This document shows positions 49,907-55,660 of a stretch of 64,000 nucleotides of DNA, one piece after another. Source of the stretch: Gelidibacter maritimus (GTDB taxonomy: Bacteria > Bacteroidota > Bacteroidia > Flavobacteriales > Flavobacteriaceae). Under the pieces are notes generated by a model. That model had not been told where the DNA came from and ran no database searches. It worked only from the letters and a program-made list of their open reading frames with translations. The stretch is from NCBI RefSeq assembly GCF_014062315.1, contig NZ_JACGLT010000007.1, forward strand, positions 62,001 through 126,000, given 5' to 3'. The stretch's first letter is position 1; every line of letters begins with the position of its first letter. The position numbers and the translations under genes were made by a program.

Positions 49907-50020
49907 TACGCATTTAGAATCTTTGAAAGAAAGCGTCGGGATTAAAATTGAAAATGCTAAGATAAATCTGTGCTTCGTCGCTTAAATTGTTTACATTTAA
50001 GAAGCGTAACCAGACTTACA

Positions 50021-53000
50021 ATGAGACATCTTGCTCTCTTTTTTCTACCTCTATTTTGGCTGTCTTTTGGATATTCTCAAACCATTTATCAAAAGGATAG
50101 CTTAACCATTTTAGCGGACTCCATTCACAACCAGGGCGATTATGATCAGGCAATATCCATCAGAAAACAAGCTATAGAATTTCAATATCGCGCACCACAA
50201 GATTATCAAACATATCTCAACGCTAAATATTTCCATACCAATTCTGCCTATTATGAATTTCAAAGTTATAATTATCATAATTCGGATAAGGGGATTACTA
50301 AGAAAGCCAGGGAGCAATATCTTGACAGTGCATTGCAGGCATCTATAAAGGCTCGAGATTTATATGCGAGTGTGCAACGTCCGGACCGAATGTTTCAGTA
50401 TCAAGTGCAAAACAGAGTTTATCACCAAACCGCTTATTTGGGCAACTGGCAACATGCTTTAGAGCAAGCGCAATTGGGTTATGAGTTTCTAGAAGATACC
50501 TTGTCCAAAACTGATAAGATATTTGTCGATTTGATATATGATATCGGGTATATCCACAGCCAACTGGGCGATTATTCTAAAGCGGTTGAAAATTACCAGG
50601 CGTCACTCAATTTATATAAAAAAATCGTTGGCGAAAACCATACAGATGTAGCACAAGCTTATAATAATATTGCAGTGGAATATCGGCACCTGGGGTTACG
50701 CAAGAAGGAGCTAGTATCCTTACTAAAGGCGAAAACTATTTGGGAGGATTTGGGAGGCGATGACAACAAAAAACACTTGTACAGTTGCTATGGTAACTTA
50801 TTTTATTGGTATTCCTATTATGGCGATTTTGACAGGGCAGAGGAATATATTCTGAAGAAGAAAAAACTACGGGAAGAAGAGGTTGTTAAAAAGTCGGGAT
50901 TTCTTAGAAACGAGGAGGAAATCTATAGGGATCAACTTTCTAACTGGTCGGATTTGATGCATCATTATGCGCGAAAAAATGATACGTTAAAGACCGCTCT
51001 TTATGCAAACACTATTCTAAATACCATTGACCCCAATAAGACACTGCTCGGTTTTGAGGTCAAATTTCTGACCTCCACATTGAAATTTTACGGTTCCATA
51101 GTAGAGAAAAAGAGCAATCAAGATGCTTTGGATTTGGTGGAAAAAGCCATTGGTCTTCAAGAAAAATATATGACCACTTATTATACAAAATCATTTGTTT
51201 TCCAACTGTACAAAGCAGAACTATTGGTCAGTGCAGAACGCTATCTTGAGGCGGAGAAAGTGTTGGACGCCCTACAAAAGTTGAAAGTTGATGAAGATAT
51301 TGCCAATAAATTTAAATGGACCATTCTTAGCGCACGCACGGCCCAAGGCTTGTATGACCAAAACAAAGCGAGACTGCTTTTTGATCAGTCATTTGCCTTA
51401 TTGAATACATCTGATAGAAGTATTGACAAGTTATCGGTTTCTGATCTATTACCATTAATTTCCTTCGAAACTATTGAGGGGTTTCTGATGATGGGCGATT
51501 TTTACGCGCAACTTTTTCAGCAAGATGGTACCCATGAAAATTTAAGAAAAGCAACCCATCGTTATCTGTTGGCCGCTAAAATTTACAATCAGTTGTATTT
51601 AGGGCAACGGTACAATGAACGCTTATTTACAGTTTACAATGATATTAACGAACGTTTGTTAGAAGTTGGCTCACTTCAAGACAACAATTCAGCAGTAGTG
51701 TCGGAAATCCTAAATACCATTGAAAACAATGCCTCCAAATTAACTTGGTCAAAATTTGTTTTCAACACTCGGCGTCAAGAAGTTGACGTTCCTAAGCGTT
51801 TTATCAATCAAGAGGAAAATATAAAGTCAGAACTTAATTTTTATCAAGACGCTTTGGCACTTGCAAAAGACGGTCCTGAGGAAAAAATTTCACTCTGGAA
51901 AGATAAAATTTATGAGTTGAAATCGGATTTGGTCAAAATTCAAGATTCTATTAAGGAAGAGAATAAAACCTATTATCAGCTCCATATTAAAAGTTTTGAC
52001 ATAGCAACACTTCAGAAGTCACTGAAAGAGAGAAAGCTTATTTTAAAATATATAGTTACAAATAAGAAATTATATACTTTTTCAATTTCCAAAAATAGTA
52101 TTGCATTATTACCGCCTATAGACAAGCTGAAAACAATGAGTACATTAAAAATATGCTTGGATAAATTAAAGCTACGAAAACAAGATTATGAGTCGTCTTT
52201 TAATGCCATGCGCAGGTTGTTATTTGACAGTATTGATCTTGAACCTTATAACAGAATAATTATAGTAGCAGATGGTGCTTTAAATTATTTTCCTTTTGAA
52301 GCGCTTTTGCTGGATAAAAAAATGCCTTCAGTAGGTTATGCTTCGTCGTTGTTATTGTATCAAGAACAAAGAAAGATGCATTCCAATTATGAAACCCTTA
52401 AGGTAGGTGCTTTCTCTGCATCCAATATTCAAAACAAATTACCAAGAGCGTCAGATGAGGTCAACGCAATTCTTGATATTTTTGAAGGAAAGAGTTTTAT
52501 CAATGCATCAAAAAATGAATTTCTTGAACATGTTGAAGACTCAAATGTTCTGCATTTAGCGATGCACTCCAATATTGATGAATTGCATCCCGAGTTTTCA
52601 TCATTAACCTTTTATGGCGAAAATGATAACCAACTATTTATATCGGAGCTTTATCACGAGAGTTTAGATGCTGATATGGCGGTCTTAAGTGCTTGTGATA
52701 CCGGCAGTGGCTTTTATGAAAATGGTGAGGGTGTGATTAGTCTATCGCGTGCCTTCAGTTATGCAGGTGTGCCGAGCACCGTGGTTAGTCTTTGGAAGGT
52801 GGATGATGAAGCCACCGCAAAAATCATGACTTATTTTTATGAGCATTTAAAATTGGGCGAGACCAAAGATGAAGCCCTGAAAAACGCCAAATTGGATTAT
52901 CTAAACTATACTGAAGACCATTTGTTGAAACATCCCTATTATTGGTCGGGGTTTGTGCTTTCTGGAAACACCGATGCACTAGTTGAAGCACGAAGTTATT

Positions 53001-53077
53001 GGGTTTATTTTGCTATTTTACCCATTGTTGTTTTAGGTTTTTTTAGTAAAAAACTAGTCAAGTTTTTTAAGAAGTGA
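50021..53077 (+). CDS. TPR-CHAT caspase-like protein with C-terminal membrane anchor
   Basis: From ATG 50021, which begins a signal peptide ending in F-G-Y-S-Q, the protein has 1018 residues. TPR-type helical repeats fill about residues 25-560 (for example G-D-Y-S-K-A-V-E-N-Y-Q-A-S-L). A linker precedes the C-terminal CHAT peptidase domain (about 690-980) with His near 849 in L-A-M-H-S and Cys near 892 in L-S-A-C-D-T-G, so the catalytic dyad is present. A final hydrophobic helix (W-V-Y-F-A-I-L-P-I-V-V-L) and basic tail anchor it. CHAT domains are caspase-like proteases, often in signalling or defence. The 3' end overlaps by 24 bp the opposite-strand anti-sigma-like gene, so the genes form a convergent unit. 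Confidence 0.9.
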   Translation: MRHLALFFLPLFWLSFGYSQTIYQKDSLTILADSIHNQGDYDQAISIRKQAIEFQYRAPQDYQTYLNAKYFHTNSAYYEFQSYNYHNSDKGITKKAREQYLDSALQASIKARDLYASVQRPDRMFQYQVQNRVYHQTAYLGNWQHALEQAQLGYEFLEDTLSKTDKIFVDLIYDIGYIHSQLGDYSKAVENYQASLNLYKKIVGENHTDVAQAYNNIAVEYRHLGLRKKELVSLLKAKTIWEDLGGDDNKKHLYSCYGNLFYWYSYYGDFDRAEEYILKKKKLREEEVVKKSGFLRNEEEIYRDQLSNWSDLMHHYARKNDTLKTALYANTILNTIDPNKTLLGFEVKFLTSTLKFYGSIVEKKSNQDALDLVEKAIGLQEKYMTTYYTKSFVFQLYKAELLVSAERYLEAEKVLDALQKLKVDEDIANKFKWTILSARTAQGLYDQNKARLLFDQSFALLNTSDRSIDKLSVSDLLPLISFETIEGFLMMGDFYAQLFQQDGTHENLRKATHRYLLAAKIYNQLYLGQRYNERLFTVYNDINERLLEVGSLQDNNSAVVSEILNTIENNASKLTWSKFVFNTRRQEVDVPKRFINQEENIKSELNFYQDALALAKDGPEEKISLWKDKIYELKSDLVKIQDSIKEENKTYYQLHIKSFDIATLQKSLKERKLILKYIVTNKKLYTFSISKNSIALLPPIDKLKTMSTLKICLDKLKLRKQDYESSFNAMRRLLFDSIDLEPYNRIIIVADGALNYFPFEALLLDKKMPSVGYASSLLLYQEQRKMHSNYETLKVGAFSASNIQNKLPRASDEVNAILDIFEGKSFINASKNEFLEHVEDSNVLHLAMHSNIDELHPEFSSLTFYGENDNQLFISELYHESLDADMAVLSACDTGSGFYENGEGVISLSRAFSYAGVPSTVVSLWKVDDEATAKIMTYFYEHLKLGETKDEALKNAKLDYLNYTEDHLLKHPYYWSGFVLSGNTDALVEARSYWVYFAILPIVVLGFFSKKLVKFFKK

Positions 53078-53785
53078 TTTAGCTTCAGCTAATTTGAAAG
53101 TCTCTCCAGAATCAATAAAAATCCTGAGTTCTTGCTTTGCTTTTTCAACTTGACCAGATTTTAAATACGCCAATGCCAAATACCAATGGGTCCGTTTGGT
53201 CAAGGCATCAGAATAGGTGAGGTGGGTCTTGAAAACTTCAATCGCTTCTTTGGTTTTATCTAAAGCCAAAAGCGAATTCCCTTTATAAAATAACAATTCT
53301 GAATTTTTTGTGCTTTCAAAAGCCTGTTCAAATAACGAAAGAGCAGCCTGATAATCGGTTTCAACGTAAGCAATAAAAGCATTGTTGGCCAATTGGTCAT
53401 TTGCATCAGAACGTATAATGGGCGCGCTAACGTTTTTAGACGGTTCAAAATAAGTGCTAAATAATGCGTCTTTGTTGCTCGGGGTGTTCAATACAAATAA
53501 AAATCCAAGAGCAAAAATTAAAATGGCCGCCACTGCAATCAAGGGTTTTAGCCATTTGGTCTTAGCGAATGCTTTTTTTGGCGATATTTGAGTTTCGTAA
53601 GAAGCTAACTGATTCTTAAATTGAACATCATCATCGGCCTTTGAGACCGCTTGTACATTTTTCAGAAAATCGACTTCTTGTTTAAAATTCTCATTAGTAT
53701 GATAGCGTTTATTGAATTCTAAAAGCTCTACTTCGGTTAGGCGCTTAGAAAAATATTTTTCTATCAATGTTTCATTAATTGTCAT
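53054..53785 (-). CDS. Membrane TPR protein, probable anti-sigma-like partner
   Basis: From ATG 53785 this is a 243-residue protein. A cytoplasmic part of about 75 residues (I-E-K-Y-F-S-K-R-L-T-E-V-E-L-L-E-F, like the zinc-free N-termini of anti-sigma factors) is followed by one helix (L-I-A-V-A-A-I-L-I-F-A-L, near 80-100) and a C-terminal TPR region. The ATG overlaps the TGA of the upstream sigma gene (ATGA at 53782-53785), which decides this start over an earlier in-frame ATG at 53827 and implies coupled translation. An anti-sigma role is inferred from order and topology. Confidence 0.8.
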   Translation of the reverse strand: MTINETLIEKYFSKRLTEVELLEFNKRYHTNENFKQEVDFLKNVQAVSKADDDVQFKNQLASYETQISPKKAFAKTKWLKPLIAVAAILIFALGFLFVLNTPSNKDALFSTYFEPSKNVSAPIIRSDANDQLANNAFIAYVETDYQAALSLFEQAFESTKNSELLFYKGNSLLALDKTKEAIEVFKTHLTYSDALTKRTHWYLALAYLKSGQVEKAKQELRIFIDSGETFKLAEAKSLLKKLD

Positions 53786-54333
53786 CTTGGGGATGTTTTG
53801 ATCAGGTTCTTCAGTGTTTTCAGGCAACGCGATTTTTGACTTCGAACTACCGCTTCACTTTCATAACCGTATTGTTTTGCTATTTCTTCATTGGTTAGTC
53901 CTCTGTAAAAGCTTAATGTTAACATCTGCTGGCAACTTTTTCCTAATTGATTGAAAAAATGCCTTAATAATTTTTGTTCTTCAGTCAGTTCTTGTGTGAT
54001 ATCAACGGTGATGCTTTCGTAATCTGAGTCCGTGTTGTGAAGGTTTGCATTGTAAGAGCTTTTGGAGGCTTCTGCTTTATGTATGTCAAAAATTAAATAC
54101 TTTCCAATTCCAAAGAGATAGGTTTTAAAACTACAGCTGACCTCGTTTAATTTTCCTGAGATGGCATGTTTTCTCATGGCCAAAAAGGCCTCCTGATAAA
54201 TGTCGGCACTGTCAATTTCTGAAATACGATATTTTCTTGAAAAACCAAAAAATTCAGCTCTATGTCGCCCATAAAGTTCTTTTATGAGCGTGTCGTCATT
54301 ATTCTTTAAGGCATCCACGTAATGGTGTTCCAT
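53782..54333 (-). CDS. ECF-type RNA polymerase sigma factor
   Basis: This is a 183-residue sigma-70 family protein of the extracytoplasmic function type. Region 2 contains D-S-A-D-I-Y-Q-E-A-F-L-A near residues 40-55. Region 4 has C-Q-Q-M-L-T-L-S-F-Y-R-G-L-T-N-E-E-I-A near 135-153 followed by a recognition helix and K-S-R-C-L-K-T-L. It is divergent from a run of exported-protein genes, with an 85-bp shared promoter region, and is coupled to the membrane TPR gene. It probably directs transcription of itself and the divergent operon. Confidence 0.92.
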   Translation of the reverse strand: MEHHYVDALKNNDDTLIKELYGRHRAEFFGFSRKYRISEIDSADIYQEAFLAMRKHAISGKLNEVSCSFKTYLFGIGKYLIFDIHKAEASKSSYNANLHNTDSDYESITVDITQELTEEQKLLRHFFNQLGKSCQQMLTLSFYRGLTNEEIAKQYGYESEAVVRSQKSRCLKTLKNLIKTSPR

Positions 54334-54418
54334 ATAAATTGTGAAAATTTTTCTAAGAAAATGTTAACATTAGGTTTTTTCCCACCACTAAAGATAAATC
54401 ATTCTAAATCAAATCAAA
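54334..54418. promoter_or_regulatory. Short divergent promoter region of ECF locus
   Basis: The 85 bp between the sigma gene and the exported-protein operon contain GTTAAC at 54363-54368, resembling -35 elements used by Bacteroidota ECF sigma factors. An AT-rich ACTAAAGATAAATC segment follows about 20 bp downstream that could hold the -10. No standard TAnnTTTG element is seen on the plus strand. The assignment is tentative. Confidence 0.4.
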
Positions 54419-54832
54419 ATGAAATCTAAAATTATAGTATGCCTAATTGTATTGGGTTTTGCAGTACAAAACACCTATTCCCAAAAACGACAGTTGAAAT
54501 CTACCAAGGTAGTATTTGTAGTGAATGAAAAGTCCAACAAAATTGAAGGGTTAGAGCTTTTCGAAAAAGATAGGGCTGAAATGCTGGTTAAAAAATATCC
54601 TAAGAAAAAGTTCTTTTTGGGGAGTGTTAAAGGGAAGTATAAGATAGAAAACAATCAAATCACTCCTTATAAAGGAGCCATCTTTACCATGTACACCGAT
54701 AAAAAGAAATTACCAGGTGATATGTTTCTTCCTGGGGATATGTTTCTTCCTGGAGACATGTTCTCACTCGATAAATCAAAGTTTGAAGTTAAGGAAGTGA
54801 ATGCTTCACAACTCATTTTTAATACCCTATAA
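54419..54832 (+). CDS. Exported protein with triple LPGDMF repeat
   Basis: This is a 137-residue protein with a signal peptide (Q-N-T-Y-S-Q). A beta-rich centre is followed by three tandem hexapeptides L-P-G-D-M-F (54710-54763), then S-L-D-K-S-K. The three 18-bp units differ at several synonymous positions while the peptide is identical. I do not recognise the family. It is the first gene of the divergent operon, 3 bp before the next gene. Confidence 0.8.
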   Translation: MKSKIIVCLIVLGFAVQNTYSQKRQLKSTKVVFVVNEKSNKIEGLELFEKDRAEMLVKKYPKKKFFLGSVKGKYKIENNQITPYKGAIFTMYTDKKKLPGDMFLPGDMFLPGDMFSLDKSKFEVKEVNASQLIFNTL

Positions 54833-54835
54833 CTC

Positions 54836-55660
54836 ATGAAAACACTGAAAATTAAACCAAAACGACTGCATTGGTCTATTTTGTTGCTGATGTGTTTCGT
54901 TTTTACACCAAATGTAAATGCACAGTTCCTGAAAAAGCTCAAAAAACGAGTAGAACAAAAAGTAGAGAATGCAGTTATCGAAAAAACCGCTAACAAGGCT
55001 GCCGAAAAAGCAACGCAGTCCATGGACAAAATGTTTGAGATCAATCCTTTTGGCGGAAGTAACGAAAAAGCAGATCCTGCTTTGGTTGCCGATACTTATG
55101 ATTTTACTTGGAAATATACGTTAAAAATGGCCACAAAGGAAGGGGAGATCGTTTTTGATTATTATCTCAAACCTGATGTAGCCTATTTCGGATTTACGTC
55201 TGCCATGATGAACAATATGTGCACGGTCATGGATAATGACCAAAACGTGATGGCAATTTTTATGGATTCTAAGGGGAACAATATAGGCATGGTCAATCAA
55301 ATACCAGAGATTGATATAGAGGATGCTGATGAAGCCTCCGAAAATTTCACTTTTGAAACATTACCTGACAAGACCATAAACGGGTTTGATTGTAAAGGCG
55401 TCAAAGCGGTGAATGACGGTTATGAAATGACCATGTATTTTATTACGGATGCCGAGATAAGCTTTGATGACATTTATAAAAACAGTAAAACTAAGATTCC
55501 TGATGCGCTCAAAGATTATTTCAATCCTGAAGACAAAGTTTTAATGATCCACATGGACATGAAAAACCTCAAAAAGGAAAAAGAGAGTGCGACGATGGAA
55601 TGTATAGGACTTGAAGAAATTCATAAAACGATCAACAAATCAGATTATAAATTCATGTAA
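54836..55660 (+). CDS. DUF4412-like exported protein
   Basis: This is a 274-residue protein with a signal peptide (P-N-V-N-A-Q). A basic coiled segment (L-K-K-R-V-E-Q-K-V-E, about 33-65) is followed by a domain resembling DUF4412, with D-F-T-W-K-Y near 90 and G-F-D-C-K-G-V near 182. DUF4412 proteins are exported and of unknown function. Position in the operon suggests a role with the neighbouring cell-surface proteins. A 36-bp gap precedes the next gene. Confidence 0.72.
   Translation: MKTLKIKPKRLHWSILLLMCFVFTPNVNAQFLKKLKKRVEQKVENAVIEKTANKAAEKATQSMDKMFEINPFGGSNEKADPALVADTYDFTWKYTLKMATKEGEIVFDYYLKPDVAYFGFTSAMMNNMCTVMDNDQNVMAIFMDSKGNNIGMVNQIPEIDIEDADEASENFTFETLPDKTINGFDCKGVKAVNDGYEMTMYFITDAEISFDDIYKNSKTKIPDALKDYFNPEDKVLMIHMDMKNLKKEKESATMECIGLEEIHKTINKSDYKFM

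Follow-up and report, generated by a model that had tools for sequence, protein, structure and literature searches.

Three adjacent genes in a 64,000-nucleotide stretch of the Gelidibacter maritimus genome (the window, whose coordinates are used throughout) encode a CHAT-domain protein with tetratricopeptide repeats (TPRs), an extracytoplasmic function (ECF) sigma factor and a membrane TPR protein that resembles an anti-sigma factor. We propose, at a probability of roughly three in four, that they form a signalling unit in which the CHAT protein would be the dedicated site-1 protease cutting the anti-sigma protein, with release of the sigma factor as the presumed outcome. Until an envelope signal, perhaps sensed via one or both TPR regions, activates the membrane-anchored, periplasmic CHAT protein, the N-terminal region of the anti-sigma protein would keep the ECF sigma factor bound at the inner membrane. 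The active enzyme would then cut the anti-sigma protein in the loop between its transmembrane (TM) helix and its TPRs, after R125 (PIIR|SD, bar at the candidate cut) in the window and after a Met in two other clades, and further proteolysis, within the membrane and in the cytoplasm, would release the sigma factor, as happens in the DegS/RseP/RseA pathway. Gene linkage, domain content, predicted topology, a conserved loop motif and a match between that motif and CHAT residue 813 were computed; from these we infer the latency of the enzyme, the cleavage, an S1 role of E813, the later proteolysis, the sigma release and the signal. As far as we know, work on CHAT proteases has concentrated on cytoplasmic defence systems, and no substrates have been assigned to their membrane-facing relatives. 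If the proposal is true, a caspase-like enzyme opens a membrane-bound lock on a gene regulator in a widespread, testable signalling switch, and a caspase-type enzyme would join the known routes for switching on sigma factors across a membrane.

The CHAT gene lies on the plus strand (ATG at 50021, stop at 53077; the longest open reading frame has a GTG further upstream, at 49970) and encodes a TPR-CHAT cysteine protease-like protein of 1018 residues, predicted to be periplasmic from its sequence, its Pfam matches and an AlphaFold2 (AF2) model (pLDDT 84.7). The protein begins with a signal-peptide-like segment (50021..50077; helix 2-24 in the model), has a TPR_12 match (E 4e-9) and carries the CHAT domain at residues 739-983 (52235..52969; PF12770, E 2.8e-50, 171.8 bits against a family cut-off of 24). 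It ends in a TM anchor with a short basic tail that is predicted to be cytoplasmic from sequence and model (53000..53077). Alignment with homologues identifies the catalytic residues as H849 (codon 52565..52567) and C892 (codon 52694..52696), and this dyad is retained in 102 of 102 aligned CHAT reading frames, found with a profile that itself spans the dyad. In the AF2 model H849 follows strand 843-847, and C892 follows strand 886-889 and directly precedes a low-confidence stretch (894-902). E813 (codon 52457..52459) sits in the first turn of helix 810-820, after strand 795-799, and D929 opens the helix that follows strand 919-923. These features suggest a caspase/separase-type protease, predicted to be proteolytic and probably latent. 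Its nearest relative among named genomes, with 78% identity across most of the CHAT region, is in Gelidibacter japonicus, Gelidibacter being a genus of the Flavobacteriaceae (Bacteroidota).

The sigma and anti-sigma-like genes are both on the minus strand and run towards the CHAT gene. The sigma factor (53782..54333, 183 residues; TIGR02937, E 3.6e-20) fits the ECF (group IV) type, with PF04542 and PF04545 over cut-off, no region 3 listed and a short length. Two of its cysteines, C134 and C170, are among the five invariant columns of 40 aligned sigma factors. The ATG of the anti-sigma-like gene (53785-53783) overlaps the sigma stop codon as ATGA (53782-53785); we used this start, where the mechanical list of reading frames has a longer TTG start, which gives a protein of 243 residues (53054..53785), assigned from sequence, Pfam, AF2 and family models. 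At its other end the gene overlaps the CHAT gene tail to tail by 24 bp (53054..53077), and some overlap of this kind is found in 46 of 65 convergent loci. A preliminary description of the locus had reported the anchored TPR-CHAT protein with its His/Cys dyad, the 24-bp overlap and the ATGA-coupled pair of an ECF sigma factor and a one-TM TPR protein, and each of these was borne out.

The AF2 model of the anti-sigma-like protein (pLDDT 87.8) consists of N-terminal helices, one TM helix, a short helix, a loop and TPRs. The helical anti-sigma-like domain (residues 1-67; 53585..53785) is predicted to be cytoplasmic, the TM helix spans residues 82-99 by model and hydropathy (53489..53542), the loop covers residues 113-127 and has no secondary structure in the model (53405..53449), and the TPR domain, seen in the model and in TPR matches, occupies residues 128-242 and is predicted to be periplasmic (53060..53404). 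The window protein itself matches anti-sigma family models weakly and below cut-offs (LIMLP_03685, E 0.016); among 40 aligned homologues, 13 match the NCBIfam 'anti-sigma factor' model NF052375 and seven match LIMLP_03685, with matches counted at E <= 0.01. Of 128 pairs, all selected because an anti-sigma gene was present, 124 have that gene no more than 15 bp behind the sigma gene. A gene adjoining the sigma gene with an ATGA overlap, an N-terminal helical domain and a single TM helix are features of membrane anti-sigma factors, and they suggest that the TPR protein binds and inhibits the sigma factor.

The same three-gene set recurs widely, and the group is therefore not a chance arrangement. 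A CHAT search of 199 genomes of the family found matches at E <= 1e-20 in 83 of them (131 matches by our own count from the table), and the surroundings of 102 of the 131 were analysed (101 loci and 102 CHAT reading frames, the window included). The nearest sigma factor of the window's clade lies within 3 kb of the CHAT gene in 71 of the 102, with 36 convergent, 25 on the same strand with sigma upstream of CHAT, nine divergent and one in another layout; sigma is farther away in 17, and none is present in the stretch in 14, some of which are at contig ends. Thus three layouts (convergent, operon and divergent) all keep CHAT and its sigma/anti-sigma partners together. The reciprocal test, in 60 family genomes, gave 29 strong matches to a sigma profile (E <= 5.3e-42) followed by a gap. 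A CHAT gene lies within 10 kb of 26 of these 29 clade sigmas and of 0 of the next 60 ECF matches among the matches listed, and 27 of the 40 CHATs in these genomes are within 10 kb of a clade sigma. Over the same genomes 20 have both, one has sigma only, six have CHAT only and 33 have neither (Fisher p 1e-9). Across the phylum, a CHAT match at E <= 1e-40 is present in 95 genomes out of 247, each of which is 90% complete or better; when 40 loci from this survey were inspected, many had sigma and anti-sigma genes beside CHAT and others, mostly from more distant families, had none. The pairing of CHAT with an ECF sigma factor, whose recurrence the preliminary description had made a test of its idea, is thus found in many Bacteroidota genomes, and we discarded the idea of a gene group unique to this genome.

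Three CHATs and an equal number of strong clade sigmas are present in the genome of the window itself, and in G. japonicus two CHAT/anti-sigma/sigma units stand in succession (L173). One family (the genomes behind loci L239-L258) has up to 12 CHAT matches per genome, several with no recognised sigma or anti-sigma gene nearby. No third component common to all layouts was seen among the recurrent neighbours. A phage origin was considered and set aside, as a phage collection gave no match; in a plasmid collection all 200 records were below 60% identity.

The topology of both proteins was predicted from sequence. By hydropathy and charge, 120 of 128 anti-sigma proteins have the N terminus inside, five have it outside and three are ties. 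A C-terminal TM helix is present in 121 of 128 CHAT proteins, of which 119 have the C terminus inside and two are ties, and a strongly hydrophobic stretch occurs within the first 60 residues of the reading frame in 92 of the 128. Because of the signal-like N termini, the TM positions and the charge bias, the CHAT domain and the anti-sigma TPRs are both predicted on the periplasmic side of the membrane, the same-side placement on which the preliminary description had made its idea of cleavage depend.

Within the anti-sigma homologues, the loop between the TM helix and the TPRs shares one residue, an Arg in motifs of the form NVxxPIxR|G/S, PNTVYxITR|G, LPSLVxR|G or ISLTVR|G, and two clades have a Met instead (DPGLPTTM|S and LTTTM|S-like). 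The following residue is mostly Gly or Ser, and can also be Asn, Asp, Thr, Ala, His or Glu. When 110 Arg/Lys-type proteins were aligned with MAFFT, with no guidance from the motif, the highest conservation was that of the Arg column (97%; the next best is at 93%), and the Met is invariant (17 of 17) in the second Met clade (f10). The corresponding residue in the window, R125 (codon 53411..53413, minus strand; PIIR|SD), lies in the loop between the TM helix and the TPRs in the AF2 model, where the first cut of RseA-type proteolysis could fall, and we regard it as a candidate P1 residue.

We compared the loop residue with 263 columns of the CHAT alignment, each with at most 30% gaps, over 164 pairs of CHAT and anti-sigma proteins (155 picked through a sigma match and nine via anti-sigma profiles). 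Glu is found at position 813 in 118 of 118 CHATs paired with Arg or Lys (one Lys) and in 0 of 46 paired with Met, which have Leu (22), Ser (8), Val (7), Ala (6), Ile (2) or Thr (1). Column 813 is the only one of the 263 with no misassigned row; the next best misassigns nine. The 155-pair set gives 110 of 110 and 0 of 45. Taken separately, one Met clade is perfectly separated by columns 813 and 847 and the other by 807, 813 and 929, so that 813 alone is common to both. All 36 later pairs (27 from two other families and the nine from anti-sigma profiles) agree with the rule, having been read after it was known from the first set, with both residues in view and not blind. An unlinked pair in one genome (G027) also agrees, with Leu in the CHAT protein (L094) and PTTM in the anti-sigma protein (L264), and two loci in operon layout (L084 and L119) have Glu and Arg, contrary to their layout. 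In caspases the S1 pocket is lined by the loops that precede the first helix and follow the fifth strand. An acid in that region would fit an Arg at P1, and E813, in the one perfectly separating column, is a putative S1 (P1-binding) residue. The preliminary suggestion that CHAT clips the TPR anti-sigma protein thus gains comparative support, as a prediction, from the conserved candidate site and its match with residue 813. The geometry and shared TPRs on which it had leaned are both present and carry little weight by themselves.

The composition of these sets was as follows. Eight of 136 initial pairs were excluded, five for an unclear partner or motif (L148, L149, L153, L154 and L166) and three as second assignments (at L100, L135 and L173); L166 re-entered the 164 pairs with a different, convergent gene. 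Loci L179, L183, L184 and L196 were left out as coming from the same genomes as other loci, and L182 was not counted, its anti-sigma-profile match having neither TM helix nor motif. In the set from two other families 13 of 40 loci yielded no pair, of which L239, L241 and L252 yielded one in the later rescan with anti-sigma profiles. L202, in whose anti-sigma-like protein no TPRs were seen by eye, is included with the Arg pairs; leaving it out gives 117 of 117.

A CHAT protein could also act as a non-proteolytic partner, docking with its TPR/CHAT body on the anti-sigma TPRs and passing the signal on mechanically. TPRs in both proteins and the CHAT domain included in DdvA, an anti-sigma factor in the PDB, would suit such docking. 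However, the dyad is kept in every one of the 102 reading frames, and a residue in the expected S1 region that matches the loop residue without exception fits substrate recognition better than docking; we consider a purely mechanical role unlikely.

Several observations weigh against our proposal of a dedicated site-1 protease. In the 60-genome survey 13 of 40 CHATs have no clade sigma within 10 kb, and a rescan of 30 loci with anti-sigma profiles found no anti-sigma gene in 20; because of these two results, some CHATs may have partners other than the clade sigma and anti-sigma proteins. Only two of the nine pairs found via anti-sigma profiles (L076 and L252) have a recognised sigma gene beside the anti-sigma gene. 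One anti-sigma protein with the Arg motif (G058, L265) comes from a genome, 80% complete, in which no CHAT was found. On a CHAT tree built without column 813 only two changes are needed, and both traits split the 155 rows identically and hence necessarily change together. Independent pairs number one on well-supported branches and two on all branches, and with one such pair a sign test cannot reach significance, for which at least six differing pairs would be needed at the 0.05 level. We estimate the chance that sets of two and three of 263 columns share one at ~0.02. The P1 letters, moreover, come in part from a rule and in part from inspection by eye, the latter at L073 (Lys), L114, L163 and L082 (where the partner was also changed), in the 27 pairs from two other families and in the nine from anti-sigma profiles. 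Finally, cleaved Csx30-N, from the substrate of the related protease Csx29, is described as remaining bound to its sigma factor in vitro (PMC9729208), and by analogy periplasmic cleavage alone may be insufficient to free the sigma factor.

Two of these points, the small number of changes on the tree and the genome with the motif in which no CHAT was found, would be expected if another periplasmic protease cut the Arg/Met motif and the match at 813 reflected shared ancestry of the two clades. The nearest sigma relatives that lack CHAT speak against this. We examined five loci of six intermediate sigma matches, and in four (L259, L260, L262 and L263) the anti-sigma-like protein is 484-897 residues long with a similar N terminus and TM helix. 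These four have no TPR match in Pfam, the loop motif was not seen in them by eye, and three have TonB_C; the fifth locus has no adjacent anti-sigma gene. Thus the TPRs and the motif are absent from the four CHAT-less sister proteins, and ancestry would also have to account for 813 being the sole column of 263 that separates both clades. Of the alternatives considered, we find this one the least probable.

Regulation in the opposite direction, with sigma controlling CHAT as an effector such as a suicide protease, is suggested by the operon layout (25 of 102), where CHAT comes after the sigma and anti-sigma genes on the same strand and would rise with sigma. Across 65 convergent loci, however, a GTTAAC site (background ~0.04 per stretch) lies upstream of the sigma gene in 37 and of the CHAT gene in 0, so that in this layout CHAT is unlikely to be a target gene of the sigma factor, and we rejected it as one there on the site count. 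The effector reading also leaves the juxtamembrane motif and its match with residue 813 unexplained, and we give it very little credence, scarcely more than the other-protease explanation. Few sigma genes in the other layouts have GTTAAC upstream (4 of 29 and 1 of 31), and GGGTAACA or nothing obvious is seen in its place.

Beyond the window, we lean, with less assurance than for the unit itself, towards a phylum-wide Bacteroidota family of separase/caspase-like site-1 proteases that act in the periplasm, every member having a TPR anti-sigma protein of its own as dedicated target. Within it, S1 and P1 residues (Glu opposite Arg; a hydrophobic or small residue opposite Met) would co-evolve and so prevent cross-talk between parallel systems of one cell, and of the units in the genome of the window two would be of the Arg type and one of the Met type. 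The predicted substrate, cut site and specificity residue would give many membrane-facing CHAT proteins a job, and matched Arg- and Met-type pairs are testable in one experiment.

Some loci and neighbouring features stand beside this picture. At L166 (5801-7241) and L168 (8960-10344) an Arg-motif anti-sigma-like membrane protein is convergent with CHAT and its upstream neighbour is a response-regulator receiver protein. In these units a protease of the same type may serve a different output; they weigh against a sigma partner in these two distant loci, leaving the window's own class unaffected and the odds of our proposal unchanged. A gammaproteobacterial metagenome-assembled genome (L202, 5664-10790) has CHAT, sigma and a membrane protein with no obvious TPRs and LAATR|G after the TM helix, a possible distant parallel. 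Between the sigma gene and its divergent neighbour, upstream-site comparison marked TGTTAACAT...ACTAAA (54360..54392) as a possible regulatory site. Sites of the AAAAGGTTAACA type, often paired and inverted, occur in this position in convergent loci (window 54360-54392; L046, L054, L065 and others), and GGGTAACA is found upstream of sigma in the divergent layout; both types are possibly the sigma factor's own promoter element. The window continues with a small protein in which LPGDMF is repeated three times in tandem close to the C terminus (54419-54832) and a divergent gene for a secreted DUF4412-like protein (54836-55660; Pfam match below cut-off). The apparent family of the latter is the most frequent neighbour cluster (21 loci), and it is a possible target gene of the sigma factor.

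Among the matches listed in a literature search, which covered few subscription papers, none was recognisable by title or abstract start as describing the present group. Foldseek places the CHAT model closest to Csx29 (8eey_B, E 6e-15), with separase (E 1e-14) and DdvA (8rot) among the other top matches. The CHAT sequence profile also matches Csx29 and DdvA entries. DdvA is presumably from Myxococcus xanthus, with a periplasmic CHAT part. It resembles the window's unit in tying a CHAT domain to a transmembrane anti-sigma factor (PDB 8ROT/8RW5), and its His and Cys positions are retained in the alignment; DdvA is, however, a single polypeptide, whereas the window has two genes. RseA has one TM helix and is first cut on the periplasmic side, and DegS is a PDZ serine protease. 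Cleavage of the anti-sigma factor RseA by DegS is described as the start of sigma release (PMC10028731). The window would differ from RseA-DegS-RseP in using a cysteine protease of separase/caspase fold and an anti-sigma protein that carries TPRs. For ECF54, a review reports CHAT-domain proteins in the genetic context, with these sigma factors proposed to act without an anti-sigma factor (PMC8999054); here a TPR anti-sigma gene follows the sigma gene. Separase is reported to cut after an EXXR motif, with the P1 Arg bound by D2151 (PMC9729208), whereas the acid that varies with P1 here, E813, is elsewhere in the fold by our own reading of the secondary structure. Another of the nearest known systems is type III-E Craspase, in which Csx29 is a TPR-CHAT His/Cys protease and its substrate Csx30 is described as the inhibitor of an ECF sigma factor, CASP-sigma, encoded in the same locus (PMC10028731). 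The Csx30 cut is reported between residues 427 and 429 (PMC10028731), or after L407 in other reports cited by PMC9729208, and thus not after a conserved Arg, unlike the candidate R125 site. Craspase acts with Cas7-11 and RNA, its TPR-CHAT protein being cytoplasmic and bound to Cas7-11; the window's CHAT protein instead has a signal-like N terminus and a C-terminal TM helix and is predicted to be periplasmic, and the inhibitor it would cut is a one-TM TPR protein.

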